From assembly GCA_024277195.1 (NCBI GenBank), contig JAJRVS010000222.1, forward strand, positions 1 to 64,000: a stretch of 64,000 bases of DNA. The letters are read 5' to 3'. This DNA comes from Verrucomicrobiota bacterium (GTDB lineage: Bacteria > Verrucomicrobiota > Verrucomicrobiia > Verrucomicrobiales > DEV007). The position numbers were made by a program, and so were the translations under genes. Position 1 is the stretch's first letter. Each line of letters starts with the position of its first letter. Below the pieces are notes generated by a model. The model worked only from the letters and a program-made list of their open reading frames with translations. It was not told the origin of the DNA and ran no database searches. This document shows positions 7,323-26,600 of the stretch, piece after piece.

Positions 7323-8035
7323 TTTACATCCGCCTCCCCATCAAACAGGCGCTGGATGTCCGCCTTCAATCGCGCCAGTTCCTGCGTGCCACGCTGCGGA
7401 TCCATCACCCGGTAATAACCACGAATATTGCCGCCCCGATCCACCAGCACCAAACGCTGGTCATGGGAAAATTTCCCGTTAGCGGCAATGTCCGCGGCAT
7501 CGGTATTTTCCTTCACTGAATACAACTTAAAATACCGCAGCATGTACTTACGGATCTCCTCTTCATCCCCTGACAGAAACCACCAGTTGTCCGCGTCCAC
7601 CCCGTTCTTTTTGACAAAAGCATCCATCTTCTCCGGTGTATCACCCTTCGGGTTCAAACTGATCGACACCAATTGGAAGTCATCCTGCTCCCCATACACC
7701 TTATTCAAATCCGCCATGTAAGCCGCCAATCCCAGACAGGCCGAAGGGCAATCGGTGTACAAATACCCCGCCACCCAGATCTTGCCCTTCAACTGAGCCA
7801 GATGGATATCCTTACCATCGCGGTTCACCCCCTTCAGATTCTTCTCCAATTTGCTCATGAACGGCAGCCGTGGATGCTCCGCCTCATAACGCATGCGCCT
7901 CATGTAACTGCGCGTCACAAACACCGAGCCCATAATGATCACCAGACAAATGCCAATGATCGACGCCCAAAATAATTGCGGATTAAATTCCCTATCTCTA
8001 TTCATCATCTCAAATCTCTTCTTTTTTCTCTTCAT
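7319..8035 (-). CDS. SCO1/SenC copper chaperone for cytochrome oxidase
   Basis: A 238-residue thioredoxin-fold protein with an N-terminal membrane anchor (about residues 20-40). The copper site is visible: YTDCPSACLG supplies the CxxxC pair and FSHDQRLVLVD the distal His. SCO proteins deliver copper to the CuA centre of subunit II. The ATG at 8035 overlaps the ctaB stop (ATGA), and this was chosen over an upstream in-frame TTG. Its position between ctaB and the DUF420 gene, in an aa3 oxidase cluster, fits a CuA assembly role. Confidence 0.92.
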   Translation of the reverse strand: MKRKKKRFEMMNRDREFNPQLFWASIIGICLVIIMGSVFVTRSYMRRMRYEAEHPRLPFMSKLEKNLKGVNRDGKDIHLAQLKGKIWVAGYLYTDCPSACLGLAAYMADLNKVYGEQDDFQLVSISLNPKGDTPEKMDAFVKKNGVDADNWWFLSGDEEEIRKYMLRYFKLYSVKENTDAADIAANGKFSHDQRLVLVDRGGNIRGYYRVMDPQRGTQELARLKADIQRLFDGEADVK

Positions 8036-8946
8036 TCCCACGCCGCCCAACTAAAGAGCAACACCAACGGCAGATAAGCCAGGGTATAAAAAAACAAGGC
8101 GCGCGCTTTTTCCCGCGTCCTGACTTTGCGGAATACCAAAGCATACTTAAGCATCACTGCTCCCAAAAACACCCCCGGAATCAAAAACCACCCATGCGCC
8201 TCCCCGCTCAACACCGGCATGATCGGAATCACCACCGTGAAAAGCGAAAATATAATCGCCAGTCGTGAGGTCTTCGAGCCGTCATCGTCATCATTCGACC
8301 ACATCACAAAACCACCCTGCACGTATTGATCCCGGTACATCCAATTGATCGCCAGAAAATGCGGCATCTGCCAAAAAAACAACAAGGCAAACAAATACGC
8401 CCCGCCCAAAGTCAAAGTTCCACCGGCAGCCGTCCAACCGATCAAAGGAGGTAAAGCTCCCGCCACCGCTCCGATCACCGTATTCCAAGTCGAGCGCGTC
8501 TTCATCGGAGTGTAAATGAACAAGTAAGTCAACAGCGTCACCGCGGCAAAAACTGCAGCTAGGAAATCCACCTTCATCGCCAGGTGCACCACCCCGAAAG
8601 CCGAAAACAACCAGCCCATGACAAAAGCCGCCGCCGTCGAAACCCGGCGGGTCGGCAAAGGCCGGTCAGCAGTCCTATCCATCTTCGCATCCGCCTCCAA
8701 CTCCATCACTTGGTTAAAAGCCGCCGCGCCAAATGCGGTGAGCAAAGTACCGAAAATCGTATGCCCCAAAATCCACCAAGAAAAAGAATCATGCGAACGC
8801 GCCGCCAGCAAATAGCCAAACAAAGTAGTCATCACCACCAAGGCGCTCAAGCGCGCCTTGGTTAGCGTCATCAAATCCGCACGCCAACCCACCGCCGCAG
8901 ATTCCTCCGCGCTCTCAACTTCATCTGTAATCTCCCGACCAGCCAT
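8032..8946 (-). CDS. ctaB: Protoheme IX farnesyltransferase (haem O synthase)
   Basis: A 304-residue UbiA-family prenyltransferase that attaches a farnesyl group to haem b, giving haem O. The first Asp-rich motif is NQVMELEADAKMDRTADRPLP (about residues 95-115), with a second polar loop at YRDQYVQGGFVMWSNDDDDGS. Eight or nine transmembrane helices fill the rest. The ATG at 8946 is preferred over the adjacent GTG at 8949. It lies downstream of ctaA and upstream of SCO1, the classic order for aa3 oxidase haem A supply. Confidence 0.95.
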   Translation of the reverse strand: MAGREITDEVESAEESAAVGWRADLMTLTKARLSALVVMTTLFGYLLAARSHDSFSWWILGHTIFGTLLTAFGAAAFNQVMELEADAKMDRTADRPLPTRRVSTAAAFVMGWLFSAFGVVHLAMKVDFLAAVFAAVTLLTYLFIYTPMKTRSTWNTVIGAVAGALPPLIGWTAAGGTLTLGGAYLFALLFFWQMPHFLAINWMYRDQYVQGGFVMWSNDDDDGSKTSRLAIIFSLFTVVIPIMPVLSGEAHGWFLIPGVFLGAVMLKYALVFRKVRTREKARALFFYTLAYLPLVLLFSWAAWE

Positions 8947-10321: not shown

Positions 10322-11089
10322 TTATTTAGCATCCGGTGGAAACATTGGAGTCTGTTCCGCCAGCCAGGCATCAAATTCCTCTTTTGGTAGCACCCTCACC
10401 GTCGCCACCATGTTAGCATGACCCGCTCCGCACAACTGAGCGCAGACAATATCCCACTCACCGGTTTTGGTAGCGGTGAACCACATCGGAATCTCACGTC
10501 CGGGAATTGCGTCCTGCTGGGTCATCAAAGGGATCGGAGCCAAGCCGTGGATCACATCCTTGGAAGTGACCTGGACGATCACTTTTTGTCCCAGCGGCAA
10601 TACCAACTCATTCAAAGTAGCAAAGTCATCCCTCGCATTCGGATCCTGTTTCACCAAACCAATGCCATTAGCCGAGTTCATCGCACTGATATCCGTCAGG
10701 CCGATTTTGCCATCCACACCTGCGTAATGAAAGTTCCAGCGAAACTGCTCTCCCACCGCACGTATTTTCAACACATCATCACCTGTAGGAATCCCCTCGG
10801 TCCGAGCTGCCCACAGCGGAAAAGCAAAACCGAGCAACAATACCACTTCGACAATCACCACCCCTACTTCCACGTGAGTGGAAAAGTGAGAAGTCATGCC
10901 TTCGTATTTAGCTTTGGGATTGGCCTTCTGGTTAAAGCGAAACAAAACGAAAATCAAAAATGCCGACCAGCCGATAAACAAAATTCCCATCACCCAGTGA
11001 ACCATTTCAAGAAAATGGTCGACCATGTCGCCGTGTTCACTGGCAACCTCCGCCATTCCAATGGCTTGATTAATTCCCGCAATAATCAT
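10322..11089 (-). CDS. ctaC: Cytochrome c oxidase subunit II (CuA)
   Basis: 255 residues. Two N-terminal transmembrane helices (about 28-48 and 72-92) are followed by the periplasmic cupredoxin domain. The dinuclear copper site is complete: an upstream His in SKDVIHGLAPIPLM, then CAQLCGAGHANM with both Cys, His and Met, and the bridging aromatic segment EQFRWNFHYAG. This subunit takes electrons from cytochrome c or directly from ACIII. Unlike many caa3 enzymes it carries no fused cytochrome c domain, so a separate c-type cytochrome in this cluster must donate. An alternative start is the Met at about residue 12. Confidence 0.95.
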   Translation of the reverse strand: MIIAGINQAIGMAEVASEHGDMVDHFLEMVHWVMGILFIGWSAFLIFVLFRFNQKANPKAKYEGMTSHFSTHVEVGVVIVEVVLLLGFAFPLWAARTEGIPTGDDVLKIRAVGEQFRWNFHYAGVDGKIGLTDISAMNSANGIGLVKQDPNARDDFATLNELVLPLGQKVIVQVTSKDVIHGLAPIPLMTQQDAIPGREIPMWFTATKTGEWDIVCAQLCGAGHANMVATVRVLPKEEFDAWLAEQTPMFPPDAK

Positions 11090-11540: not shown

Positions 11541-11867
11541 CTAGAATGCTGCGTGGATCGGATTCCACAAAGAGTAGAGCATCAATAGCACCATGCCAAA
11601 AGCAAAATAACAGGTGAACAGCAGGATCTTGTAGATCAAACCTTTTTCATGGTTCAAATGCATGAAGATCAAAGCCACCAGAGTCGATTTGAAAACAGCA
11701 ATCGCCAAGCCGACGGCCACATCTATGGCGCTGACACCCGGTTCGCCAAAGTCAAAAAATTCAAACCGAGCCACCGCCACCGTGACCCCTGTAAATACAA
11801 ACAAGGCAATGCCCACAGCCCAGTAAGCTTTTCTGTGTTTTTCGATTTCTTCCGGAGAGTTCGCCAT
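11541..11867 (-). CDS. ctaF: Cytochrome c oxidase subunit IV (caa3/prokaryotic type)
   Basis: A 108-residue protein with three transmembrane helices, matching prokaryotic COX4/CtaF in size and in the motif DVAVGLAIAVFKSTLVALIFMHLNHEKGLIYKI. The family contributes a structural subunit to aa3/caa3 oxidases. It begins with a short soluble segment (SPEEIEKHRKAYW). It lies directly downstream of ctaE, the usual order. Confidence 0.88.
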   Translation of the reverse strand: MANSPEEIEKHRKAYWAVGIALFVFTGVTVAVARFEFFDFGEPGVSAIDVAVGLAIAVFKSTLVALIFMHLNHEKGLIYKILLFTCYFAFGMVLLMLYSLWNPIHAAF

Positions 11868-11917: not shown

Positions 11918-13381
11918 CTAGAACAAATACATGATTGGGAAAAGGAAGATCCATACCAAGTCCACAAAGTGCCAGAACAAACCGCCGACTTCCACCCGAT
12001 TGGCCATGTGCTCGGGATCCTTGAGGAACAGTTTTTTGCCAAACAACAAGAAATAACCCAATACCACAATACCACCGATCACATGCAAACCGTGCAAACC
12101 GGTCATAGTGAAATAGATCGCGTAATAGGTTCCGTAAGCCGGCCCATGATTGGAAAGAAACTTCTTCTGTCTGCGTGGCACTTCGATGACAATTTCACCA
12201 TGGGAACCTAGCTCGACTTCTTCCCCCACATCGTGACCGCTCTCTTTGGCATCCGCATGTTCACCGTGTTCCGCTTTGTTTTCGCCATGACCGCCCGACT
12301 CGCTTTTAGCCGCGTGCTCTTCACCACCGCTTTCGTGAAAGCCATGCACATTCACCCGGCGACTCCTCATCTGACGATCAGGAACTGGAACACCTTTGCC
12401 CTCCAGGTAATACTCTTCCATCTTCTTGATCTCATCATCACGGGCATGATCCCATCCGGATTTCACGGCTTCGTCATTGATCAATTTCCACACCAAAGCT
12501 TGATCCTGCTGACCGACAGGAATCATCTGCAAGTCCACTTCGTGCACTTCAAATTTGATACTGTCTCCGAGCAACTTACCAGTCACCTTGCTGCCATCCA
12601 CAAAGCTCATGCCTTTGTCATCGTAACCCGACAGACGAGCGTCATCGGCATAAATCTGAAAAGGCTCCGTACTCACCAAAGTGTAGTTACGTGTGATCTG
12701 CTTCAGAGCTTCCGGATCAGGCTCACGATCCTGGCGTTTTGCTCTCCAGCGCTCGCTGCGTGATGCGGCGATCTGCTTATTGGTTTTGCGACGCATCTTT
12801 TTGACCCAGGAACTCACGCTCCCAATGTCCTCCAATTGACCGTCCTCCCCTTTCAGTTGGAAAACCGGAGCTTCGCCCTTTTTGATCCAATTCAAAAACT
12901 CGGTGCTGCCAGTGGTCACATCCAAACTCACCGTCTTCGCTTCAAAACGAATCCTGTCGGTGTGATCCAAAACCACACCTTCGACCACTGAATTGTCAAT
13001 CAAACGCATGCCGTGATGAGTCAGCTTGTAGTTGTACTCAATGCCTTTGAGCACTAAGAACAAAAAGGCGCAGGCGATGACTGTCGTCATCCACATCTGG
13101 AATTTTTTCCAATTGCCTTCTTTTAATGCCAACCAGGCAAAAACCACAAACACCGAAGATGCGATCAGCACCAGTGTATTCACAAAACCGTAAGGCACCA
13201 ATTGCACATCCGTTGGCCACGGGCTATCCACACCAGGCTCCACGCCCAGTCGCAGAAAGATGTAGGAGGAAAACAATCCGCCGAACAACATCACCTCCGA
13301 TGCCAAGAACAGCCAGATGCCAATTTTGGCATTCCACAAACCGGTGTCTCGGCGCGCTTTTACTTCATATGGTATTTCCAT
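11918..13381 (-). CDS. ctaE: Cytochrome c oxidase subunit III with a large hydrophilic insertion
   Basis: 487 residues, versus about 200 for the usual bacterial short form. The N-terminal part (1-125) matches subunit III: KIGIWLFLASEVMLFGGLFSSYIFLR, then two further helices ending FLFLVLKGIEYNYKL. The C-terminal part (about 405-487) resumes with GTYYAIYFTMTGLHGLHVIGG, VGGLFWHFVDLVWIFLFPIMYLF. Between them lie about 275 hydrophilic residues with a His/Glu/Gly-rich end (HGENKAEHGEHADAKESGH). The reading frame and the flanking helices are intact, so this is an insertion in the loop and not a frameshift. The loop position predicts an extramembranous domain at the helix 3/4 junction. Confidence 0.9.
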   Translation of the reverse strand: MEIPYEVKARRDTGLWNAKIGIWLFLASEVMLFGGLFSSYIFLRLGVEPGVDSPWPTDVQLVPYGFVNTLVLIASSVFVVFAWLALKEGNWKKFQMWMTTVIACAFLFLVLKGIEYNYKLTHHGMRLIDNSVVEGVVLDHTDRIRFEAKTVSLDVTTGSTEFLNWIKKGEAPVFQLKGEDGQLEDIGSVSSWVKKMRRKTNKQIAASRSERWRAKRQDREPDPEALKQITRNYTLVSTEPFQIYADDARLSGYDDKGMSFVDGSKVTGKLLGDSIKFEVHEVDLQMIPVGQQDQALVWKLINDEAVKSGWDHARDDEIKKMEEYYLEGKGVPVPDRQMRSRRVNVHGFHESGGEEHAAKSESGGHGENKAEHGEHADAKESGHDVGEEVELGSHGEIVIEVPRRQKKFLSNHGPAYGTYYAIYFTMTGLHGLHVIGGIVVLGYFLLFGKKLFLKDPEHMANRVEVGGLFWHFVDLVWIFLFPIMYLF

Positions 13382-13405: not shown

Positions 13406-15304
13406 TTAGTGAGTTCCCTCTTCGGCAGGTTTTTCCCCTTCTGCAATAGGTTCAGTCTGTGGGCTGAAGTCAGACTCCGCGCCCGGCACACTGTATTCGT
13501 AAGGTCCGCGATATACGATCGGATCCACTACAAAGTTGCCATGCGGAGGCGGTGTCGGTGTCGCCCATTCCAAAGTGGTTGCATCCCAAGGATTGTCACT
13601 ATTGACCTTTTTACCAAAACGAATGCTGATGAAAAAGTTAATGATGAAAGGGATTTGTGCAATCGCCAACAACCAAGCCGAAGTCGACATCACGATGTTG
13701 AGATCAATCATCAGAATTGCGTCCCCTCCGTGGAAAAGATTTGCCAACAAGGTATCTTTACCTGCAAATATCTGGCTGGAAATTTGCTCATAAGCTTTAC
13801 CTCCATCAAAAGCACGACGGTGAAATCCTGCCATTCCTTGGAAAAACATCGGCATAAAGATACCATTCATGAAAATCAAGGATGGCCAGAAATGCAAGTG
13901 CCCCATCCAAGTGCTCATCATGCGGCCGGTTTGTTTGGGATACCAATAATAGATGCCGGCAAACAGCGCAAAAATCGTGCCCGGCGCGACCACATAGTGA
14001 AAGTGACCAATCACGTAATAAGTATCGTGCAAATGCAAGTCGATCAGGTTGAAAGCCAAGGGCAAACCCGTCAGCCCACCAATACCAAACATCGGAATGA
14101 ATGCCGTAGCGAACAACATCGGAACCGTGAAGCGGATCGAACCACCCCATAGTGATATCAACATCGACGTCAATAGAATCACCGAGGGTATCGATATCAA
14201 TACCGTCGTCGTCTGGAAGAAGGCACTGACACTCGCCCCCACCCCGGTCATATACATGTGATGCGCCCACACGATGAAACTCAGGAAACCGAGCACCATC
14301 ACCGAATAAACCATAGTTTTGTAACCAAACAGAGGTTTGCGGGTATTGTTGGGAATAATTTCCGAAACGATGGCAAAAGCCGGCAGAATCAAAACATACA
14401 CTTCCGGGTGAGCCAGGAACCAGAACAAATGTTGATACAACAGCGGGTTACCCCCACCGGCCGCATCCATCAGAACTCCATTATTCAAAACATCGGTCGG
14501 TAAGTAGAAACTGGTGCCGGCAACCCGGTCCATCAACTGCATGATGGCGGCGACCTCCAGTGGAGGGAATGCCAATAACAATAAAAACCCTGTCACCAAC
14601 ATCGCCCAGACAAAAAACGGCAAGCGCATCCAAGTCAGTCCCGGAGCACGCAGGTTGATAATCGTAACCAACACATTAACCGCTCCCAGCAAGGACGAAC
14701 TGATCAAAAACACCATGCCCAACAACCACTGGGTCTGTCCGGTCCACCAGATGTTCGAATAGTTGGTATCCGTCATCGTCGCCAGCGGCGAGTAGTTGGT
14801 CCAACCGACTTTAGCGGCACCCGACGGCAGGAAAAAGCTGACCAACATGATCACTCCACCGACAAAATAACACCAGTAAGAAGCCATGTTTAAACGCGGG
14901 AAAGCCATATCCGGCGCTCCCACCTGCAGCGGAGTCACGTAGTTACCAAAAGCACCAAAAGCCAGCGGCACAATGCCCAGGAACACCATGATCGTGCCAT
15001 GCATCGCACCGAACATATTATAAAGTTCACCCGTCACCTTGCCTTCATCATCCAACCACATCTGGAACCATGGCAACTCGGACAACAATGGAATCGGACG
15101 ATCCGGATAAGCAATGCTCCAACGCATCACCATCATCAGGAAAAACCCCACTGCGAGGAAAATCAATGCAGTAAAACCATACTGCAAGCCGATCATTTTG
15201 TGATCGGTGGAAAAAATGTACTTCTGCCAAAACGGCGGATCGTGGTGATCGTGATGATCACTGCTACTCTCTGATTGCTCGTGAGTCGTGGTTGACGCGC
15301 TCAT
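13406..15304 (-). CDS. ctaD: Cytochrome c oxidase subunit I (aa3, A1-type haem-copper oxidase)
   Basis: 632 residues, twelve or more helices. All catalytic ligands are present: the first low-spin haem His (MFGAMHGTIMVF), CuB motif HPEVYVLILPAF with the proton-channel Glu of the A1 family and the cross-linked Tyr, the CuB pair WAHHMYMTG, and HDTYYVIGHFHYV carrying the high-spin and low-spin haem ligands. It is therefore the true oxygen-reducing subunit of the cluster. The ATG at 15304 is chosen over a TTG at 15322. The N-terminus is His-rich (SSDHHDHHDPPF). It is followed by ctaE. Confidence 0.96.
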   Translation of the reverse strand: MSASTTTHEQSESSSDHHDHHDPPFWQKYIFSTDHKMIGLQYGFTALIFLAVGFFLMMVMRWSIAYPDRPIPLLSELPWFQMWLDDEGKVTGELYNMFGAMHGTIMVFLGIVPLAFGAFGNYVTPLQVGAPDMAFPRLNMASYWCYFVGGVIMLVSFFLPSGAAKVGWTNYSPLATMTDTNYSNIWWTGQTQWLLGMVFLISSSLLGAVNVLVTIINLRAPGLTWMRLPFFVWAMLVTGFLLLLAFPPLEVAAIMQLMDRVAGTSFYLPTDVLNNGVLMDAAGGGNPLLYQHLFWFLAHPEVYVLILPAFAIVSEIIPNNTRKPLFGYKTMVYSVMVLGFLSFIVWAHHMYMTGVGASVSAFFQTTTVLISIPSVILLTSMLISLWGGSIRFTVPMLFATAFIPMFGIGGLTGLPLAFNLIDLHLHDTYYVIGHFHYVVAPGTIFALFAGIYYWYPKQTGRMMSTWMGHLHFWPSLIFMNGIFMPMFFQGMAGFHRRAFDGGKAYEQISSQIFAGKDTLLANLFHGGDAILMIDLNIVMSTSAWLLAIAQIPFIINFFISIRFGKKVNSDNPWDATTLEWATPTPPPHGNFVVDPIVYRGPYEYSVPGAESDFSPQTEPIAEGEKPAEEGTH

Positions 15305-15383
15305 AATTTTTCTATTCTGCAAAGCCTAGGCTTAAATATTCCTCGTCACGTGATCTTTTATCCCGTGACAAATGATTGTCTTG

Positions 15384-16136
15384 TTATTCTCCAGCAACGG
15401 GTTGCCCGGTATTCAAATCCACTTCTACGCCTGGCAATTCCGCATCCCCAGGGATTGCCAACAAATCGGCCTCCGTCCAAGGAGAGGTGCGTTTGCCGTG
15501 TTTTTCACGCGCAGCTTTCATCATCTCCTTGGTCACCACTCCGCTCTGTCCTTCTGGCAATTCTCCAAATTCACGTCGAATGTAAGTCAGCACCTGAGCG
15601 AGTTTTTCATCATTCAAAGCTCCCCATGCCGGCATCGGCTGATTGTAGGTCGAACCAGAAACATTCAGCGGCCCCAAAACACCGCTCAATACGATCATGC
15701 CCAAACGCTCGGTTCCCCCATCCACCCATTCCGATCCTTTAAGCGGAGGGAAGAGTCCGGGTGTTCCCGTTCCAGCCGCCTGGTGACAAGCGATACAGTT
15801 AGTATAAACTTTTTTGCCATCCTTCATCCAGACCTCGATCCAAGGTTCCTGCTCAGCATCTGTATCTACACCCTCAACGACAGGTCGCGCCGCAGCCACA
15901 TAACCAGGATAAATGTATGAATCACTGCTATCAAAAAAATTGCTGTACCCCCCCAAATAACCACCGGCCATCACCAAAACGATGCCCGCTCCGACTACCC
16001 AGGAAATCAATACCTTGTTACTGCCTCCGGCAACCGGTTCTGGTTTTTCCCGACGCACAGAGTCATGCCCATCGCGAACGGCAGCACGCCCCCCTTGATA
16101 ATCCAAATTTGATTCTGTAGAATTTTTGTCGTCCAT
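15384..16136 (-). CDS. Membrane-anchored monohaem cytochrome c (CcoP/caa3-like)
   Basis: About 250 residues: a soluble N-terminus, one transmembrane helix (about 45-65), then a cytochrome c domain with CIACH and the axial Met in YNQPMPAWGAL. A C-terminal extension of about 60 residues follows the haem domain. The ATG at 16136 is used; an upstream GTG at 16142 overlapping the ccoO-like stop (GTGA) is an equally reasonable start. It lies between the cbb3-like pair and ctaD and is a good candidate to carry electrons from ACIII to CuA. Confidence 0.87.
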   Translation of the reverse strand: MDDKNSTESNLDYQGGRAAVRDGHDSVRREKPEPVAGGSNKVLISWVVGAGIVLVMAGGYLGGYSNFFDSSDSYIYPGYVAAARPVVEGVDTDAEQEPWIEVWMKDGKKVYTNCIACHQAAGTGTPGLFPPLKGSEWVDGGTERLGMIVLSGVLGPLNVSGSTYNQPMPAWGALNDEKLAQVLTYIRREFGELPEGQSGVVTKEMMKAAREKHGKRTSPWTEADLLAIPGDAELPGVEVDLNTGQPVAGE

Positions 16137-16138
16137 GA

Positions 16139-16813
16139 TCACTTAGCGGCCACTTCTTCATCTGTCCCTGCCCCAGGAATCGGAGCATCCATTTTGCGCG
16201 ATAACAGGTAGTCCACCAAAGCTTCTGCTTTTTCGGTGGGTACCACCTCATAACCTTCTTCCACCGCAAAACGCCCTTTCAGCTTGATCGCATTTTCCGA
16301 AGGTTGGGCGATCTGTTGTTTGCGATAGAGATTTTTATAGGACGGCATGCTCGAATCCACATTCTGGGTGCGGGCATTGTAGAGCTTCTGATGATACCAG
16401 GCTCGATCCCTGTTACGGGTTCCCACATTAGCCAGGTCCTGACCGATGCGCATGTAACCGAGCATCGCACGACGATCATTGGTATAATCCGCTGCACGGG
16501 TTTCGCGAGCCAGCCCCTCTTCTTCATTACCACCCCAGCCCTTGCGCCACATATCAGCTCCAGCGTAAGTCGGACGCACCATTTGAGTGTGACAATAAGC
16601 GCAACCCTGGGAAGCATAAACTTCCTCACCCTCCTTATTCGCCCCTGTCCACACCGCTGGGTAAGCCCAGGCCGCCACGACATCATCTTCTTCGGAGTAA
16701 TTCTCCGGTTTGGCGTCACTCAACTGCAGGTAAGGCACCACGATCAAGAAGATCAAAGGCACGATAAATGCCGCAGCCAAACCAAGGATAAAAACTGGAA
16801 ACTCTTTCTTCAT
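16139..16813 (-). CDS. ccoO: CcoO-like monohaem cytochrome c subunit
   Basis: 224 residues with an N-terminal transmembrane helix (about 7-27) and a CcoO-type cytochrome domain: EEVYASQGCAYCHTQMVRP carries the haem-binding CxxCH and the family's QMVRP, then GQDLANVGTRNRD and the axial-Met segment SSMPSYKNL. All features for a working c haem are present, unlike the neighbouring CcoN-like protein. Its ATG overlaps the CcoN-like stop (ATGA), so the two are translationally coupled, as real ccoN-ccoO pairs often are. Confidence 0.88.
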   Translation of the reverse strand: MKKEFPVFILGLAAAFIVPLIFLIVVPYLQLSDAKPENYSEEDDVVAAWAYPAVWTGANKEGEEVYASQGCAYCHTQMVRPTYAGADMWRKGWGGNEEEGLARETRAADYTNDRRAMLGYMRIGQDLANVGTRNRDRAWYHQKLYNARTQNVDSSMPSYKNLYRKQQIAQPSENAIKLKGRFAVEEGYEVVPTEKAEALVDYLLSRKMDAPIPGAGTDEEVAAK

Positions 16814-18300
16814 GCTTTTGCAGTATCTTCTGGTGCAAAACCGGCTGCCGCTTCAGCACTCGCCGCTTCACCGGGATTTTTGTGAATCAAAGTGGGACCT
16901 TCTGACTTCCGGCCTTTGCCACATGCCATCATCAACAACTGGTAATAAAAGGCCAGATTAGCCACGGAAATCAATGCCCAGGCAACCGCCAAGGCCACGA
17001 TATAACCTTTGCCACGACGAACCGAGTCCATGAAGTCTCCACTCCAATCGTCGATCGCTCCACCCTGCGCCAGTCCGGCAAATATCATGAACGCCACGAT
17101 GGTGATAATGCCGTAAGAGCTATACCAAAAGTGGAAACGGATCAGTTTGGCCGAAGGCCACTCACATCCGGTGATGCGTGGCACGATGAAATAGATCGCG
17201 CCGAAAACCACCATCGAGAAAAAACCGTAAACCACCATGATGTCATACCCCAGCGTCGCGTAAGAAAACTGCAACAAACGGCTGATGTCAAAGTAGGATG
17301 AAAAGGCAACCAGCAACCCATACAGATTAAACATAATGCCACCAAAAACGGTGAAGCGCAGTGAAGGACTGAAGTGCATCAAACTTCCGCGACCGGAAAT
17401 AGTTCCCAGGAGGTTCACCGCCACTGCACCGATCGGCAACAGCATCAGAATGATCGCGGTTCCACTGATCGCAGGCATCCACGAAGGGAACGGCCCGCCA
17501 AGAAAACGATTAAACCCAGTCCACCCTGCCAATACAGCCAGTGCCCAAAAAGCAATCTGCGCCAACTGGTAACTGTAGATCGGACGACCGACAATCTTGG
17601 GGATGATATAATAAGCCGAAGCCAGACCCACGGGAACAAACCAGAAGTAAATCAGGTTGTTCATGAACCAGGCATTAACCCCTGCATTCATCAATGCCGA
17701 TCCACCGGTGTGATTCAAAATCAGATTAGCCACGGCAAAGATCCAAGGGAACCACAAGGCCGCACCAAAAATATACTTTTGCGAGATATAAGCCTCCCCT
17801 TCCCGACGACGACGGAACATCATCAACAACGAACCCGCGATCACCGCGTAAGAAAGGAACATCGCCGGCCACAAATAAGCGGGGAAATCAAGCCAGGGCA
17901 TTGAGTTGCCGTAACCACTCCAAACCGCCACCACACCAAACAGAATCGTCAGATTCCAGACAAAACCCGCAGCCACCAAAGTAACCCCGTTTTTGATCTC
18001 CACCCGGCACAGGCGAGCCATCAACCAGATCATCACTCCAAAACCCGCCTGCATGCCCCATCCGTAAATCAACGAATCCATGTGGGCTGGGAAAAGCTGC
18101 CCGTAGGCCAACCAAGGGCAGGCGTCCCACAACTCGGGCGCGGCCAGTTTCACCGAACTGGCAAAACCCAACAAGGTTGCCAGAAACAACCAACCGGCTG
18201 CCGATGTGAAGAAAAACAACACAGGGAGTCGAGCGGATTTATCAATCGCCGCCCTTTCCTGTATGTCTTGTACGCTTGCCTCTTGCATGGTTTCACTCAT
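16810..18300 (-). CDS. CcoN-like haem-copper oxidase subunit I lacking its metal ligands
   Basis: 496 residues, about twelve helices, with the cbb3 subunit I backbone: GQLFPAHMDSLIYGWG (low-spin haem His73), YYIIPKIVGRPIYSYQLAQIAFWAL and FGAIYFIVPR. Aligning these anchors with canonical CcoN from memory, CuB ligand His207 is Asn214, the HH pair 257/258 is Asn264-Arg265, the cross-linked Tyr251 is Ala258, haem b3 ligand His345 is Tyr352 and second low-spin ligand His347 is Ile354. Only five His exist in the whole protein. It therefore cannot hold the active site. The intact CcoO-like partner argues for a retained structural or electron-relay role. Downstream of actF and one small gene. Confidence 0.88.
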   Translation of the reverse strand: MSETMQEASVQDIQERAAIDKSARLPVLFFFTSAAGWLFLATLLGFASSVKLAAPELWDACPWLAYGQLFPAHMDSLIYGWGMQAGFGVMIWLMARLCRVEIKNGVTLVAAGFVWNLTILFGVVAVWSGYGNSMPWLDFPAYLWPAMFLSYAVIAGSLLMMFRRRREGEAYISQKYIFGAALWFPWIFAVANLILNHTGGSALMNAGVNAWFMNNLIYFWFVPVGLASAYYIIPKIVGRPIYSYQLAQIAFWALAVLAGWTGFNRFLGGPFPSWMPAISGTAIILMLLPIGAVAVNLLGTISGRGSLMHFSPSLRFTVFGGIMFNLYGLLVAFSSYFDISRLLQFSYATLGYDIMVVYGFFSMVVFGAIYFIVPRITGCEWPSAKLIRFHFWYSSYGIITIVAFMIFAGLAQGGAIDDWSGDFMDSVRRGKGYIVALAVAWALISVANLAFYYQLLMMACGKGRKSEGPTLIHKNPGEAASAEAAAGFAPEDTAKA

Positions 18301-18321: not shown

Positions 18322-18768
18322 TTATTTCTTATCCGCTGCTGCCTCTTCTTTCGCAGGAGCCTTCTTCTCTGCTGCTGCTGCCGCAGCTTTGGCCTGAGCC
18401 TGGGCTTGTTTCAAACTGGTAGGAGATCCTGGCACCACCACTTTACTAACAGCGGCTTTTTGTTTTCTCAAATCCGGCAGGATCAGTTTCATTCCAGCCG
18501 TCACCGGAATACGAACCAAATTATTCTCTTTATCGACCACTGCGACTTGAGTGATCAGGGCCTGCTGCGCAGCGTTCACTTCGGTTAGCTTTTCCAGGCG
18601 TTTACCAGCTCTCTCATTTTCCCCCGCATTGGCTGCGGCATCTTCATTCGAAGAATTGAAACAAAGGATGAATGAAATGACCACCACAAAAACCAGCAGT
18701 GAAATCACAATCATCCAAAACGCGGTGAAGCGGCTCTGGGCATTGTCTTGTGGATGTTCCTTATTCAT
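18322..18768 (-). CDS. Small single-helix membrane protein with Ala/Lys-rich tail
   Basis: 148 residues: a cytoplasmic N-terminus, one transmembrane helix (about 15-36, ending FILCF), a short folded segment (QALITQVAVVDKENNLVRIPVTAGMKLIL) and a low-complexity Ala/Lys/Glu/Gln tail from about residue 112. No family is recognised. It lies 9 bp from actF and 21 bp from the CcoN-like gene, so it belongs to this operon and may link ACIII with the downstream cbb3-like module. Confidence 0.6.
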   Translation of the reverse strand: MNKEHPQDNAQSRFTAFWMIVISLLVFVVVISFILCFNSSNEDAAANAGENERAGKRLEKLTEVNAAQQALITQVAVVDKENNLVRIPVTAGMKLILPDLRKQKAAVSKVVVPGSPTSLKQAQAQAKAAAAAAEKKAPAKEEAAADKK

Positions 18769-18777
18769 TATTAAGTA

Positions 18778-20337
18778 TCAGTTCACCACGTTCAAAGATT
18801 CTTCCAGGCGAGGATCCTGGCTGGGATACAAACTCGATTTACCCAGACTGCGCAGCAAGAGGAATCCGAAAATACCACCCACCGTAATAAAGGCCAATAC
18901 ATCAAACCAGATCGCACCTGGGATGACCAATTGCGCCCCACCCGTCAGGGATACCCCACGCTCGGGAATAATGATCCAATAGATGTCAGCGATCTGCATC
19001 AACAAAATCCAAACCGAGATGGCCACCATCAGTGCCGGGGTCTTTTTGACCTGACGCACCAACAATGCCGCGAAAGGAATGAAGAAGTGACCGATCACTA
19101 ACAAGGTGATGGTGTAGGTATTAAAAAAGTCTGTGTTACGCAACAGGAAGAACTTGGTTTCTTCGGTGATGTTGGCATACCAGATCAGGAAAAACTGACT
19201 GAACGCAATGTAAGCCCAGAAGATCACAAAGGAATGCAGCAACTTACCCATCAAGTGATAGTGCTCCATGGTCACGGTGTCTTTGAAATGTCCCTGGCTG
19301 CGCAAATAAGTCAGCAAAGCAATCAGCAAAGCCATCGAGCTCAAGGCGGCTCCGGCAAAAAGGTAAACGCCCCACATGGTGGAGAACCAGGTGTAATCCA
19401 AAACCATCAACCAGTCGACCACCAGGAAAGTCCAGCAAATACCAAACACCGCAATAAAAGCACAACTGAAACGACGCATCAAAAGGGTATACTTAGGATC
19501 ACCGGTTTTATCCTGGGCAATCGACCATTTTCTCAAAGTGTAAATCACTCCACCCAGACCAATTACATAAAAGATGTAACGCATCACCCATGAACCTATG
19601 TTCAAATACCCGCTTTTGTGGAACAACAACGGATTGCCGTGACCGCCTTCACCGTCACCGTGTTTCATGAAGTGAACCTGCAGCTCTTTGCTCAGGGCTT
19701 TGTCATCCAACTGCCCCTCTTCCAATTCCGCCAACTTGCTTTTGGCATGCACCAGACGCTCATTGAGAAAGCTCGCTTCTCCCTTGTTCTCGCCCGCTTT
19801 GGTCAAAGCCGCTGCTGTTTCAGTTTCCAGCTTTTTGAAATCCACCTTGGATACTTCCAAATCCTTCGCACGTTTGGTTTTTTCAGCTTCCAAATGTGCT
19901 TCTGCGTATTTTTCACCACCTTCGATCAACGCCGCCTGCTCAGGAATCCACTCCCACAGTGCACTTTTAAAATCGCTCGAAAAGACCAAAGGCAAACCCA
20001 ACAACAAAATCCACGGGGTGAGACTACCGAGGTTTTCCATCAAGCGTCTGACCATCACTCCCCAACCCGAGTTGGTGGCATTATGAACCAGCGTCCAGAA
20101 GATCCCCCCCACGGCGAGAGTCAAAAAAAACATCACCGCAAACAACCAGGAATAAGCCATCATCGACCGGCGTGAAACTTCTCCGTCTTCTCCGCCTCCT
20201 GTCATCGCTAGGATGGCGAACAACACCAAACCGACAACGCCGACTGCCAGAAACACCATTTTCAGCATTCCTGTTTTCGACTTGTTCAGAGCTTCCCCGT
20301 CTTTCGGGAAATCATCTGCTGACTTAAGTGCGCTCAT
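18778..20337 (-). CDS. actF: Alternative complex III subunit ActF (NrfD-like)
   Basis: 519 residues. About ten helices with PsrC/NrfD-like features (FFLILANITEE region, IPFAALLVRQVKKTPALM, ERGVSLTGGAQLVIPGAIWFDVLAFI) identify the smaller quinone-site membrane subunit. Between helices 3 and 4 (about residues 140-235) is a hydrophilic, Lys/Glu/Ala-rich insertion with coiled-coil character. ActF pairs with ActC in ACIII, which oxidises menaquinol or quinol and reduces periplasmic cytochrome c. It follows actE. Confidence 0.88.
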   Translation of the reverse strand: MSALKSADDFPKDGEALNKSKTGMLKMVFLAVGVVGLVLFAILAMTGGGEDGEVSRRSMMAYSWLFAVMFFLTLAVGGIFWTLVHNATNSGWGVMVRRLMENLGSLTPWILLLGLPLVFSSDFKSALWEWIPEQAALIEGGEKYAEAHLEAEKTKRAKDLEVSKVDFKKLETETAAALTKAGENKGEASFLNERLVHAKSKLAELEEGQLDDKALSKELQVHFMKHGDGEGGHGNPLLFHKSGYLNIGSWVMRYIFYVIGLGGVIYTLRKWSIAQDKTGDPKYTLLMRRFSCAFIAVFGICWTFLVVDWLMVLDYTWFSTMWGVYLFAGAALSSMALLIALLTYLRSQGHFKDTVTMEHYHLMGKLLHSFVIFWAYIAFSQFFLIWYANITEETKFFLLRNTDFFNTYTITLLVIGHFFIPFAALLVRQVKKTPALMVAISVWILLMQIADIYWIIIPERGVSLTGGAQLVIPGAIWFDVLAFITVGGIFGFLLLRSLGKSSLYPSQDPRLEESLNVVN

Positions 20338-20366
20338 AAAAATCTAGTCTTCTTGCTTTTTAAAAA

Positions 20367-21047
20367 TTACTTTCCGGCTTGTTCAAAAGCCTTTTTCACT
20401 TCTCCCTCGTTTTTCGCCGAAGAAGAAAACTGCAAAGCTCTGACATAAGCGATAATCGCCCACCGGTCTTGCACCGTGATGATGCCCTTATACGATCCCA
20501 TCAGGCCTTTGCCGTTGGTCATCGCAGAAAAAATCTGTCCATCCGGTGCGTCCTTGATCAACTGGGTCATCAAGTCGGCGCTTGGCGGAAATCCCAACCA
20601 ATACTTCGATACCGTGCCTTTGCCGTTGCCGGATGCGCCATGACACATTGTGCACTTGATCTCGTATTGCTGCTTGCCGCGTTTGAGCAGCGCCGCATCC
20701 ACTTTCACTTCAGACGGAATGCCATCGCCGTAATAATCACCAAAACGTCCGCTGTTATAATAGTCATCCGAATGACTGAATCCAAAAGCAGCGATCGCTT
20801 TGCCATTGGCAGCACGATTGTCCCCTTTGGGCAGTTCAAAACCAATCGGCACGGTGCCAAGCACCGGCAGGCGGTTACCACTACCGTCAGCAAACTTGTC
20901 GCTGGGTTTTTGATACTTCACCTTATACTGACGATCCATGTCAGGAAACAGCTCCATCGGTGGCTGCGTGAAACGCGTACCACGAACTCCGATCGCCGAA
21001 ACCACGGCCACCGTTACAATAAATAATATGAGAAAAAACCAGCGCAT
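20367..21047 (-). CDS. actE: Alternative complex III monohaem cytochrome c subunit ActE
   Basis: 226 residues with an N-terminal hydrophobic anchor (about 3-20) and a single haem motif CTMCHGASGNGKGTVSKYWLGF; the axial Met is probably in NGKGLMGSYKG. The N-terminal linker (FPDMDRQYKVKYQKPS..) is typical of ActE. It would pass electrons from the pentahaem ActA toward the soluble or oxidase-bound acceptor. Position between actD and actF matches the canonical actABCDEF order. Confidence 0.9.
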   Translation of the reverse strand: MRWFFLILFIVTVAVVSAIGVRGTRFTQPPMELFPDMDRQYKVKYQKPSDKFADGSGNRLPVLGTVPIGFELPKGDNRAANGKAIAAFGFSHSDDYYNSGRFGDYYGDGIPSEVKVDAALLKRGKQQYEIKCTMCHGASGNGKGTVSKYWLGFPPSADLMTQLIKDAPDGQIFSAMTNGKGLMGSYKGIITVQDRWAIIAYVRALQFSSSAKNEGEVKKAFEQAGK

Positions 21048-21066
21048 TATGAGTTTCCTAATTCAA

Positions 21067-21627
21067 TCACACTTCATCTTCGACCAACTCCACATTGGTT
21101 GCCCCCAAGGACTCCAACATTTCTTTGGTCCGTTCCCGGGAAAATTTCGGATCCCGTGCTTCAATTGACATAATAAATCCGTCATCGGAAAATTTCAAAA
21201 AGGTCTTCGAGGCGAGCAGCGGATGATTCAACCGCGGCAACATCAGGATCACCAACAAACCACCCAGCACCGCAAACGCAGAGAGCAAAATCGTCAGTTC
21301 GAAAATCACTGGGAAAAAAGCCGGCAAGGTCGAGAAGTCCGTCGGTTTGCCCTGCACCACGGTAGGATACAAATTCACCTGGGTAAAGAACTGCAAAAAC
21401 AAGGCAGTCAAACCACCGGTAGCTCCCCCTGCCAGCACCAAAGCCGATAACCAGGATTTTTTCAGTCCCATCGCAGCATCCATGCCATGAATAGGATAAG
21501 GGGAATGCACATCCCAGCGTTTGAAGCCAGCGTCGCGCACTTTTTCCGCAGCGTGATAAATCGCCGTAGCGTTTTCAAACTCTGCGACATAACCGTAGGC
21601 CGGTTTGCTGTTAGTTGTTGCCTTCAC
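21067..21627 (-). CDS. actD: Alternative complex III subunit ActD (DUF3341)
   Basis: 186 residues with a GTG start. DUF3341 features: YGYVAEFENATAIYHAAEKVRDAGFKRWDVHSPYPIHGMDAAMGLKKS, then two transmembrane helices (about 62-82 and 105-130) and a short C-terminal soluble domain. ActD is a structural subunit of ACIII without cofactors. It lies between actC and actE. Confidence 0.92.
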   Translation of the reverse strand: MKATTNSKPAYGYVAEFENATAIYHAAEKVRDAGFKRWDVHSPYPIHGMDAAMGLKKSWLSALVLAGGATGGLTALFLQFFTQVNLYPTVVQGKPTDFSTLPAFFPVIFELTILLSAFAVLGGLLVILMLPRLNHPLLASKTFLKFSDDGFIMSIEARDPKFSRERTKEMLESLGATNVELVEDEV

Positions 21628-21673
21628 CTTTAATTCAAATTCAATCTTAATTTATTCTAGCTCTGCACCGCCC

Positions 21674-23119
21674 TTAGGCATCTGCTCCAGCACGTCCCTT
21701 TTTCAGTTTTTGCCAATCAGGATAATGAGCGTCCGACTCCGGCAACACCCCTTTCACCTCGCTGATCGCGATCACCGGCAAGAAGCGGATGAACAACAGG
21801 AACAACATCATGAACAAGCCAAAAGTTCCGGCAAACATCAACCACTCCACCCAGGTCGGGCTGTAGTAACCCCACTGCCCAGGCAGGAAGTCACGTGCCA
21901 GAGTAGTCGTGATGATCACAAAACGCTCGAACCACATACCCGCATTCACAAACATCACTACGATGAAGACCACCACCAGGTTGCGTCGAATTTTATCGAA
22001 CCAGAAAATCTGCGGAGCAATCACGTTGCAAAAGAACATGCAAGCATAAGCCCAGGTATAAGGGCCGTTGACGATCCGCATGTAAAAAGCATCACCCTCA
22101 AACTTGTTGCCCGAGAAATACGCCATGAACAGCTCCATGATGTAGGCGTAACCCACAATCGTGCCGGTCAGCAAAATGATCTTCGCCATGTTGTCGATAT
22201 GTTTCAAAGTGAACATATCCTGCAAGCCGTAAAGACTGCGTATGGGGATCATCAAAGTCAGCACCATGGCGAATCCACCAAACACCGCCCCTGCCACAAA
22301 ATAAGGCGGGAAAATCGTCGTATGCCAACCTGGCACCACTGAAGTAGCAAAGTCGAAGGAGACCACCGAGTGCACCGAGAGCACCAGCGGAGTAGAAAGC
22401 GCTGCCAACAGCAGGTAGCCCATTTCATAGTGTTTCCAAGCCCGGTTGCCACCGCGCCAGCCAAGAGCGAACATACCGTAGAGAAACTTACGCACTTTTG
22501 TCGTCGCGCGATCGCGCAGCGTCGCCAGATCGGGAATCAGGCCGATATACCAGAAGATCACCGATACCGTAAAATAAGTCGAAACCGCGAACACATCCCA
22601 CAACAGCGGGCTTTTGAAGTTCTGCCAGATCTCGTTGGAGTTAGGAACCGGTGCCAAAAACCACACCATCCAGAATCGTCCAACGTGGAAACCGGGGTAA
22701 ATACCCGCACAAACCACCGCGAACAAAGTCATCGCTTCCGCCGCCCGGTTGACCGAGGTCCGCCACTTCTGGCGAGTCAAAAATAAAATCGCCGAGATCA
22801 AGGTTCCCGCATGGCCGATACCAATCCAGAACACGAAGTTCACAATCGCCCAACCCCAAGCCACCGGCTGGTTATTCCCCCAAACCCCGACACCGGTCGA
22901 AACCAAATACACCAAGGTGTAACCAAGACATGAGGCCAGCAACACGGAAGGCACAAACAAAATCCACCAGACAAACGGTTGGCGGTTTTCCACGATACCG
23001 CAGACGCGATCCGTGATCCAGCTCATCGAGCGGTTGTTCAGAACCAACGACTCACGCTTCACCCCTGGAGCTTCGCTCGGGTGCACCGTCTGATTCGAAT
23101 CTGTTGTTCCCTTAGCCAT
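21674..23119 (-). CDS. actC: Alternative complex III quinol-binding subunit ActC (NrfD/PsrC)
   Basis: 481 residues, about ten transmembrane helices of the NrfD/PsrC family, with [92 protein letters not shown] and [12 protein letters not shown]. ActC holds the main quinol oxidation site of ACIII and contacts the Fe-S part of ActB. It is preceded by actB with a 58-bp gap. Confidence 0.94.
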
Positions 23120-23177
23120 TCAAATAATTCCTTTAAATCTTTTAGTCAATTCTGTGATCACTCGCGTTGATTCCAAT

Positions 23178-26100
23178 TTATTGCATCTTCGCGGTTGCCT
23201 GCCCCACCTTCGCTGCACCCGGCATGCTTGGATTCGGATTCCGAACTCTGCCTAGATAAGTCGTGCGAGCACGAATCCCAAGGTACTTCAGTATCTCGTA
23301 GTTACGGGGAGAAGCTTTGGAATTTTTCTGATTCACATCCTCTTTCGGGTTTTTTAAGTTCCCAAAAATAATCGCATCCGACGGACAAGCCACCTGACAG
23401 GCAGTCTCCACTTTATTGGTCGGCACTTGCACGTCCGCAGACTCACGAGCTTTGGCTTTCGCCGCAATTTTAGCCGTGGTGATCCGCTGCACACAGTAGG
23501 TGCATTTTTCGATCACCCCACGCATACGAACGGTGACGTTTGGATTCTTCTGCAACTGTTCGGTCGTTGTCGCATTGCCCTCGGCTGGCGCCAAAGGTCC
23601 CAGACGCAATTTATCCAGCGGACGTTTGTTGACGTCGAAATAATTGAACCGTCGTGCTTTATATGGACAATTGTTGGCACAATAACGTGTGCCGATACAG
23701 CGGTTGTAAGTCATCGCGTTAAGCCCATCGCTGGTGTGGACAGTGGCGTTGACCGGGCAAACCGTTTCGCACGGAGCCGCTTCACACTGCGCGCAGTTAA
23801 CCAACTGCGGAATCATTTCGATATTGTCATCGTCCACGCTGCGACGACCGGGGCGATCCCCGTCTCCATCGCGGAACTGGCTGGCAAGATCTTCCTGTTT
23901 CAAGGTAGTGAAATAACGATCCATGCGGATCCAGTGCATTTCACGACCATTGAGCACCTCGGCTTTACCGACGATGGGAATATTGTTCTCTGCCTGACAA
24001 GCCACGGTGCAAGCATTACAACCGAGACAAGAATGCAAGTCCACTGTCATCGCCCACTGGTGGTCAGGGTCGACACGGAAAGGGAAATTCCACGGATTGC
24101 TGCGCTCGGTATCGTTCACCGGATTTTCCGCGTTCATGAAATCCGGCCCTTTATACAAAGAGATGTTTTCCGGAATATGAGCATCCATGCCGTGCTTCTG
24201 CACCGCATCAGGATCATCATCAAAATTGTCCAGGGTCACTTCGCGAGCCAAAGCACGGCCTTCCATACTGTAGTGTTCTGCAGTGAGAGCCAGAATGTGT
24301 TTTTTGCCCGTGCCAGTCACTTTTGCGCCAGACACCACGTAAGAAGCTGATGTCGTTTTCAGCGGATAAGCATTAAAACCAACGCCTGTTCCCACCCGAC
24401 CAATTTCCACTTCCTGCCCCTTAGCATCGTGGCCGTAATAACCCAATGCCAGAGTGATCGTGAAATCTGCCTGCCCCGGACTGCGCAAAGCCGGAACCTT
24501 GACAACCGCCTCACCCACAGCGACTTCCAAAAGCTCTCCGTCCTCTTTGAGACCCAACTTATCGAAGGTCGCCTGGCTCAACAGAGCCGCGTTGTCCCAA
24601 GTGAGTTTGGTGATCGGATCAGGCACTTCCTGCATCCAACCGTTGTTGGCAAATCGTCCGTCGTAAATCGCCGCGCTAGTAGTCAGAACCACTTCCATCG
24701 ACTCGGCATACGGCATGTCGACCAATTTAACATCTTCGATGGCTCCAGCCACCTTGGTTACATCTACTTTAGCTCCAGCAGCCGCTGCAAATTTGGATTT
24801 GTCGAGGTAACCGTCACGCAAAGTTGCGTTCCAAGCTTTTTTCACGTCGCCTTTTGCCAAAGCAGCAAAAGTCTTTTTCACTTCAGCCAAACCAGGCAAG
24901 GGCACATCTTCAATCGCCACCGCTGCTCCGCCATCTGCCTCCTCACCTTCAGCAGATGCTTTTTCAGGCTCAGCCAAAAGGCGGATAAAAAATTCAATCT
25001 CTGAAAGTCCACCATATAAAGGCAACAACATTGGCTGCATCACGGAATACACTCCGGTCACCGACTGCAAATCGCCCCAGCTTTCGAGGTAGTGAGCACC
25101 CGGCACATGCCAAGTCGCTGCTTTGGCGGTGAGATTTTTTCTCACGCCCAAGTGAACCGATACCGGCACTTTGGCCATCAGCTCAGCAAAATTCAAATCA
25201 GCCGGGGCGTCAAACACCGGATCCGTTTCGCCGACCACCACCAAGGTGCGCACCAAATCGGATTTCATCTTTTTCGCCAAGGCATCGATGCCTGGCAAAC
25301 GGGCTTCTTTTTGCCCCGTATTCACCACCTGCAGGGAAGCTTTGCTACCCGAGAAAGCACCCAGTGCAGTATTGATCGCTGCCACCAACAAATGCACTTC
25401 TTTGTCGTGACGAGAACCCGCCACCACCAGTGCCCGGCCTTTGGATGCGGCCAAATCCTTGGCGGCTTCCACGATCCATTTGCGGTTAAAAATCGCGTCG
25501 TTCACGCGTCCCGCCGTAGCGGCCACAGCTTTTTTCAAAGCCGCATCGCCGGTTGCTTTGGCGATTTCGCGGGCAAACAAGACCGCAATTTTAAAAGTCT
25601 GACTTGCGGGCAAACGCAAACGGTGATCCCCCATGCCGCCGGTCAGCGTGAACGCTGGTTCCACGACATAAAGTCGATTCATCTTTTTAGACAGCTTGCC
25701 CTTGGCATCCTCAACCCGGCGTCCCAAAGTGAATTGCTTCACTGGATCCTCACCAATTCGGTCGAGACCAAGAAAGTCACAGTCGAGTGACAAAATTTTC
25801 TCCGCCCGGTCAAAACGGGTCACCTGACGACCACCTTTGCCAAACAAAATCTCCTGCGCTTGCGCACAACCGTCATGCGAAATCGCTTCGTGGCGATAAA
25901 ACTCAGCCGACGGGTAACGTTTTTTCAGCTCAGAGATCAAACGATTGCGAGTCGGTGAAGAAGAGTCCCCTACCAAGAAAGCCGTGCCGTCACCCACCCC
26001 TTTTTGAAAGTCGGTGAGAAATTCACCGTTGAAGTCCGCTTCACTGGAAGTTTTCCCTTTGGCCAAATACAAATTCGAACGATCCGGATCGTAAAGATCA

Positions 26101-26552
26101 AGCACCGAAGCCTGCATGAAAGCATCCGACCCACCGGAAACGGTCGGGTGCAGACGATTGCCATCCACTTTGGTCGGACGCCCTTCGTGAGTCGTCACCA
26201 CCAGCGGATCTCCACCGAGTCCGCCGATACGCGGTTTCACCGTGGAGTAAAACAAAGGATTCCCCGGCACGTTCCACTCAACATGCTCGTTGAAAGGGAC
26301 CAAGAAACGTCGTGGGCGACGGCAAGAAGCCATGCCAAAACCCGCCAGTGCGGTAGCCGCACCCATCAGGCGGACAAAATTGCGTCGTGAAACTCCCCCA
26401 TCCGTTTCCGGTCCGGCCAATTCCGCCGCTCCCTGTGGGAATTCACGTTCCAGCCATGAAGTGAATTCAGGGCTTTCATCAAGCTCGCCCAGACTACGCC
26501 AGTACTGACGACCGGTGTCGGGAGTTTCAGGATGTTGCCACTTGCGTTTCAT
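23178..26552 (-). CDS. actB: Alternative complex III iron-sulfur/molybdopterin-like subunit ActB (fused)
   Basis: 1124 residues. An extended Tat-type leader has SRRNFVRLMGAATALAGFGM at about residues 55-74. The first 800 residues follow the molybdopterin oxidoreductase fold, which in ACIII is known to lack molybdenum. The C-terminal part is a four-cluster ferredoxin domain: CLGCNACTVAC, CAQCEAAPCETVCP, CIGTRYCANNCP and CTYCVQR...ACQVACP. The two halves are fused as in most ActB. A TatA gene at 44270 in this window could serve its export. It would pass electrons from ActC to the haems of ActA/ActE. Confidence 0.95.
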   Translation of the reverse strand: MKRKWQHPETPDTGRQYWRSLGELDESPEFTSWLEREFPQGAAELAGPETDGGVSRRNFVRLMGAATALAGFGMASCRRPRRFLVPFNEHVEWNVPGNPLFYSTVKPRIGGLGGDPLVVTTHEGRPTKVDGNRLHPTVSGGSDAFMQASVLDLYDPDRSNLYLAKGKTSSEADFNGEFLTDFQKGVGDGTAFLVGDSSSPTRNRLISELKKRYPSAEFYRHEAISHDGCAQAQEILFGKGGRQVTRFDRAEKILSLDCDFLGLDRIGEDPVKQFTLGRRVEDAKGKLSKKMNRLYVVEPAFTLTGGMGDHRLRLPASQTFKIAVLFAREIAKATGDAALKKAVAATAGRVNDAIFNRKWIVEAAKDLAASKGRALVVAGSRHDKEVHLLVAAINTALGAFSGSKASLQVVNTGQKEARLPGIDALAKKMKSDLVRTLVVVGETDPVFDAPADLNFAELMAKVPVSVHLGVRKNLTAKAATWHVPGAHYLESWGDLQSVTGVYSVMQPMLLPLYGGLSEIEFFIRLLAEPEKASAEGEEADGGAAVAIEDVPLPGLAEVKKTFAALAKGDVKKAWNATLRDGYLDKSKFAAAAGAKVDVTKVAGAIEDVKLVDMPYAESMEVVLTTSAAIYDGRFANNGWMQEVPDPITKLTWDNAALLSQATFDKLGLKEDGELLEVAVGEAVVKVPALRSPGQADFTITLALGYYGHDAKGQEVEIGRVGTGVGFNAYPLKTTSASYVVSGAKVTGTGKKHILALTAEHYSMEGRALAREVTLDNFDDDPDAVQKHGMDAHIPENISLYKGPDFMNAENPVNDTERSNPWNFPFRVDPDHQWAMTVDLHSCLGCNACTVACQAENNIPIVGKAEVLNGREMHWIRMDRYFTTLKQEDLASQFRDGDGDRPGRRSVDDDNIEMIPQLVNCAQCEAAPCETVCPVNATVHTSDGLNAMTYNRCIGTRYCANNCPYKARRFNYFDVNKRPLDKLRLGPLAPAEGNATTTEQLQKNPNVTVRMRGVIEKCTYCVQRITTAKIAAKAKARESADVQVPTNKVETACQVACPSDAIIFGNLKNPKEDVNQKNSKASPRNYEILKYLGIRARTTYLGRVRNPNPSMPGAAKVGQATAKMQ

Positions 26553-26600
26553 TCTAATATAACTGGAAAATCTACTTATTTCTCGGTTTCAGTGTCAACA

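Follow-up and report, generated by a model that had tools for sequence, protein, structure and literature searches.

A CcoN-like protein without an oxygen-reducing site, and its intact c-haem partners, between alternative complex III and an aa3 oxidase in Verrucomicrobiota: a putative non-catalytic module

In Rhodothermus marinus (ACIII–caa3) and Flavobacterium johnsoniae (ACIII–aa3), the alternative complex III (ACIII) genes actABCDEF adjoin an A-type oxidase, and a supercomplex running from quinol to O2 has been proposed or seen. In R. marinus a c-domain on subunit II provides the connection to the oxidase, and in F. johnsoniae an extra c-domain on ActA does so (PMC5928083). A C-type (cbb3) oxidase adjoining ACIII is further described for verrucomicrobial methanotrophs and Opitutaceae in PMC8498564, which cites Refojo et al. 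(2010). The act-linked locus of Methylacidiphilum is counted as a working cbb3 (PMC6688271, PMC8498564, PMC10205796), and one of these papers ties it to high O2 affinity.

The window, i.e., the whole stretch of 64,000 nucleotides of Verrucomicrobiota DNA analyzed here, shares with these systems the arrangement of actABCDEF followed by an oxygen-reductase operon. In contrast to R. marinus and F. johnsoniae, its CtaC and ActA carry no linking c-haem, and a module encoding a CcoN-like protein, a CcoO-like protein and a cytochrome c lies between the two gene sets. The operon position and gene family of this module are those of the C-type oxidase reported in methanotrophs and Opitutaceae. The genes of the locus are:

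18778–27368, minus strand: actFEDCBA, alternative complex III; five CxxCH in ActA, one in ActE
18322–18768, minus strand: small protein with one TM segment, encoded between actF and ccoN; matches no family above the cut-off
16810–18300, minus strand: CcoN-like, putatively non-catalytic subunit, 496 aa; CcoN fold, one of six His ligands, no cross-linked Tyr
16139–16813, minus strand: 224-aa CcoO-like cytochrome c, monohaem, overlapping ccoN by 4 bp; CxxCH at residue 71 and a conserved Met at 156
15384–16142, minus strand: 252-aa monohaem cytochrome c with a membrane anchor, overlapping ccoO by 4 bp; CxxCH at residue 116 and a conserved Met at 170
13406–15322, minus strand: CtaD, A-type oxidase subunit I; ligand motifs intact
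11918–13381, minus strand: CtaE, subunit III, 487 aa; large insertion
11541–11867, minus strand: CtaF, subunit IV
10322–11089, minus strand: CtaC, subunit II; CuA motif, no fused cytochrome c domain

The three module genes thus overlap by four bases at each junction. The small single-TM protein is recognizable in many Verrucomicrobiales and Chthoniobacterales, and in the methanotroph-family genome G063.

Sequence and structure comparison identified the 496-residue protein as a CcoN homologue. Its PDB sequence matches were to cbb3 CcoN only (phmmer; best E-value 7e-28, 1.9e-27 for 3mk7), and it scored 147 bits against Pfam COX1 and 108 bits against the ccoN profile, for which the cut-off is 583. 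The AlphaFold model (pLDDT 93.7) superimposed on Pseudomonas stutzeri CcoN (3mk7_A) with a TM-score of 0.89 and an rmsd of 2.1, and every top structure match was a cbb3 CcoN; only single-chain models were used for this evidence. The CcoN fold proposed in the initial annotation was thereby confirmed, the coordinates given there are right, and alignment to P. stutzeri CcoN showed all its residue assignments to be correct. Fold, ccoN–ccoO order and the CcoO haem site are common to the module and the cbb3 oxidase 3mk7, whereas the window protein has neither CuB and haem b3 ligands nor the cross-linked Tyr, has lost one low-spin ligand, and is not accompanied by a canonical CcoP. The same genome also encodes, as a separate gene, a canonical CcoN (C250, 608 bits) whose ligands are intact.

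From site 207 on, P. stutzeri numbering equals query numbering minus 7. The low-spin haem b ligand H60 is retained as His73, while the CuB ligands H207, H257 and H258 are replaced by Asn214, Asn264 and Arg265, the haem b3 ligand H345 by Tyr352, and the cross-linked active-site Tyr251 by Ala258. The second low-spin haem b ligand, H347, is Ile354, so that the requirement for both low-spin ligands is not met. The initial annotation had recognized that it would fall if the ligands were found elsewhere in the fold. This was ruled out: no relocated set is possible, since the protein has only five histidines in all (73, 197, 309, 390 and 473) and a confident CcoN fold. There is also no conserved substitute ligand, because the Tyr251 column is Ala, Gly, Ser or Thr in 80/80 aligned degenerate sequences and the b3 and b ligand columns are highly variable, at the 89–92nd percentile of variability. 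Among the features of a C-type oxygen reductase, the module has the CcoN fold and a CcoO with c-haem; four defining features were tested and are missing, and the protein is a CcoN homologue but not a C-type oxygen reductase. Without haem b3 and CuB ligands, oxidase activity by any known mechanism would be impossible, and its absence, although inferred, is very likely. His73 is Phe in 10 of the 80 degenerate sequences; therefore, even this ligand is dispensable, and we infer that the protein, with one low-spin ligand left, probably binds no haem.

The two partner cytochromes are intact. As previously proposed, the CcoO-like protein, which matches FixO above the Pfam cut-off, and the following cytochrome c have complete haem sites, each with one CxxCH and a conserved Met. 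Beside degenerate CcoN, CxxCH is present in 111/111 CcoO and 102/103 cytochrome c sequences, and the Met columns are conserved at 90% and 98%, respectively.

To place the window copy in its family, related genomes were searched at E ≤ 1e-5. The CcoN-like protein was present in 51 of 57 near relatives and matched in 60 of 195 Verrucomicrobiota genomes, where weak matches include ordinary CcoN. Absences within the order correspond to one genus with genomes of 2.2–3.3 Mb, probably Akkermansia by inference. Three records, two titled Akkermansia muciniphila (L123, L129) and one assigned to Acidobacteriota (L174), carry act–ccoN genes of environmental type and are probably misnamed or misbinned. Of 433 matches in genome contigs, the best 80 belong to Verrucomicrobiota except for one record labelled Acidobacteriota; sampling was of Verrucomicrobiota, and other phyla were not covered systematically. 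The conserved gene order is ActA-B-C-D-E-F-(small protein)-CcoN-CcoO-cytC, followed by CtaD-E-F-C in Verrucomicrobiales, many Chthoniobacterales and Methylacidiphilum. The module is not universal in act operons: other classes have none, and G063 lacks the ccoN–ccoO–cytC–ctaD block. In this pmoA-bearing genome, actA–F, the small protein, ctaE, ctaF and ctaC follow in order (L204, 8500–12100) without ccoN, ccoO, cytC or ctaD, which suggests that the dead module and CtaD were lost as one block.

The ligand state is sharply bimodal. Among 150 distinct relatives, 37 have all six His and the Tyr, 113 have three His or fewer, and none has four or five. Loss of active-site residues would also be expected of a decaying pseudogene or hitchhiker; however, the frames are open, the genes overlap by 4 bp, the module is retained class-wide, and dN/dS of the CcoN-like gene against two close relatives is 0.055–0.061. 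The corresponding values for CcoO (0.125) and cytochrome c (0.09–0.15) are both higher; all ratios are approximate, because dS is near saturation. On this purifying selection we rejected decay, to which we attach practically no credence. A second outcome that would have overturned the initial annotation, intact relatives around a lone decaying copy, is therefore not met as regards the window gene, but other families do have intact homologues in this operon position.

These intact, act-linked copies (families f7, f9, f14, f16 and f17) show the ancestral state, and since the act operon of some lineages contains a copy with every ligand in place, the degenerate form is read as an inactivated ACIII-linked C-type oxidase. 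Maximum-likelihood trees of 92 and 49 sequences both place the degenerate state as three changes: (i) G222 alone within an intact clade; (ii) a 12-sequence clade, mostly f9; and (iii) Verrucomicrobiales, Chthoniobacterales and Methylacidiphilum with one further genome (G174). The changes are read as losses because the ligands are complete in outgroup CcoN and in the earliest branches. A single inactivation, with all degenerate sequences in one clade, was rejected (AU p=0.0008), and joining changes ii and iii, giving two losses instead of three, was not (AU p=0.09). Judging from these trees, inactivation occurred at least twice, with three losses on the best tree. Besides the ligands and the Tyr, the positions that intact proteins conserve and degenerate ones have lost include the equivalents of T215 and Y317, which we take to be part of the cbb3 proton channel. 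The act-linked CcoN is intact in G057, G195 and G177, all of which lack an A-type CtaD, a result in favour of the platform-and-wire reading given below. G006 (L087, L086) has a degenerate act-linked copy, and no CtaD was found in it (contig end, 92% complete); it also encodes a fully intact ccoN–ccoO–cytC set with no act genes nearby.

Most Chthoniobacterales CcoN (L143–L173) keep both low-spin haem b ligands and have lost CuB, b3 and Tyr, a pattern that points to stepwise loss. It is possible, as far as residue patterns can tell, that they represent a haem-b-only intermediate, and since many Chthoniobacterales keep both ligands, some relatives may still carry haem. The equivalents of H60 and H347 retained there, without CuB or b3 ligands, would also suit a CcoN-like protein that holds low-spin haem b and acts as a transmembrane haem relay. 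We regard this as very doubtful, given that the H347 equivalent is absent from the window protein and from nearly all Verrucomicrobiales, and that His73 itself gives way to Phe in the relatives noted above.

Next, the c-haem content of the neighbouring complexes was compared. In operons with the module, CtaC has the CuA motif in 59/59 cases and a c-haem in 0/59, and ActA has five haems in 44/44; i.e., neither a linking c-haem on CtaC nor a sixth ActA haem is found. CtaC of unlinked oxidases carries CxxCH in 14/14 cases, as it does in both act–cta operons without the module (L208, L209), the only two such operons examined and both from other classes. The lack, in module operons, of the fused c-haem that module-less cases carry supports a relay function for the module. 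In L204 the module and CtaD are lost, yet CtaC is still without c-haem.

We hypothesize, with a probability of roughly two in three, that the CcoN-like protein is a non-catalytic former subunit I serving as a membrane platform, and that the CcoO-like protein and cytochrome c form the wire from ACIII to the aa3 oxidase; there are no physical or kinetic data. On this view the protein is a former C-type (cbb3) subunit I derived from an ACIII-linked oxidase. The loss of its CuB, haem b3 and one low-spin ligand is seen in the sequence, and we infer that it no longer reduces O2, is probably haem-free and has remained in the ACIII assembly. It would there hold the CcoO-like protein and the following cytochrome c, and electrons would pass from ActA/ActE through their haems to the CuA of the aa3 oxidase (CtaC). 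These haems would replace the c-haem domain fused to CtaC or ActA in other ACIII–oxidase supercomplexes. With the fold and the partners' haems conserved and no extra c-haem on CtaC or ActA, supply of the link by the CcoO-like protein and cytochrome c is the simplest reading. The underlying proposal, a retained non-catalytic CcoN within an ACIII–aa3 operon, is borne out by class-wide ligand loss, purifying selection, synteny and conservation of the CcoO haem. The relay role itself is inferred from gene content; electrons may instead reach CuA directly from ActE/ActA or go to other acceptors.

Direct transfer from ActA/ActE to CuA would leave the CcoN-like protein, together with its two partners, as a purely structural adaptor that docks aa3 or other proteins on ACIII. 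No redox cofactor is expected in the CcoN-like protein, as this would have it; a pure scaffold, however, would not need the near-invariant haem sites of the CcoO-like protein and cytochrome c, and the extra c-haem that serves other systems is missing from CtaC and ActA. We consider a structural adaptor unlikely. Comparably unlikely, perhaps slightly more so, is a branch point at which the module feeds acceptors besides the adjacent aa3 (a caa3 encoded elsewhere, soluble cytochromes, other reductases). Clade ii and G222 retain the module without adjacent cta genes and with a caa3 elsewhere in the genome, and the act cluster of M. caldifontis IT6 contains a nos cluster (PMC11102522). The window order argues otherwise: the cta genes come immediately after the module, and their CtaC has no c-haem of its own. 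The idea that an adjacent aa3 accompanies every inactivation was rejected. Since no cta genes follow the module in clade ii (the f9 losses) and G222, the wire to an adjacent aa3 cannot be its general role; for these lineages, delivery to other acceptors is likelier, and the module may pass electrons to a caa3 encoded elsewhere or to a soluble carrier.

The ligand-less type extends to published cbb3 assignments. In Methylacidiphilum Kam1 and SolV, genomes with 3–4 pmoA copies, positions 60, 207, 251, 257, 258, 345 and 347 of the act-linked CcoN are Ser, Glu, Ser, Ser, His, Phe and Val, and there is no HxH; the SolV model (pLDDT 88.4) has a TM-score of 0.88 to cbb3. A ccoN profile search found no other CcoN in these two genomes, only weak cross-matches to CtaD. 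In G148, presumably Opitutus terrae PB90-1, the act-linked CcoN is likewise dead and other, intact CcoN genes are present. Five of the six His and the Tyr are missing from all three proteins, although these loci have been published as working cbb3. On residue evidence, the "cbb3 oxidase" of Kam1 and SolV is of the same dead type, in contradiction to the published assignments, and the cbb3 next to ACIII that has been tied to high oxygen affinity is unsupported by sequence.

Taking the family as a whole, the evidence leans, though not strongly, towards a non-catalytic haem-copper oxidase subunit I family, its catalytic site lost at least twice (probably three times), whose members are obligate structural and wiring parts of ACIII–oxidase supercomplexes across Verrucomicrobiota, with the Methylacidiphilum "cbb3" not reducing O2. 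No ligand-less cbb3 or other haem-copper oxidase subunit was found in the literature searched, which left out most subscription journals, nor any description of such a catalytic subunit retained by selection after metal-site loss. If this is correct, a respiratory supercomplex would include an oxidase pseudoenzyme, the family's sequences would form a series leading from active (6/6 His) via haem-b-only to ligand-less proteins, and the wiring of ACIII to an aa3 oxidase that has no c-haem of its own would be explained.

Two features of the cta region were also recorded. The 487-aa CtaE matches Pfam COX3 in two stretches separated by a long charged insertion; CtaE of the same operon in Methylacidiphilum is about 270–290 aa. 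Beside the cta genes, a DUF420 fused to a DUF1573 domain is encoded at 6246–7322 (minus strand), between a rhodanese-like protein (5795–6217) and Sco (7319–8050).
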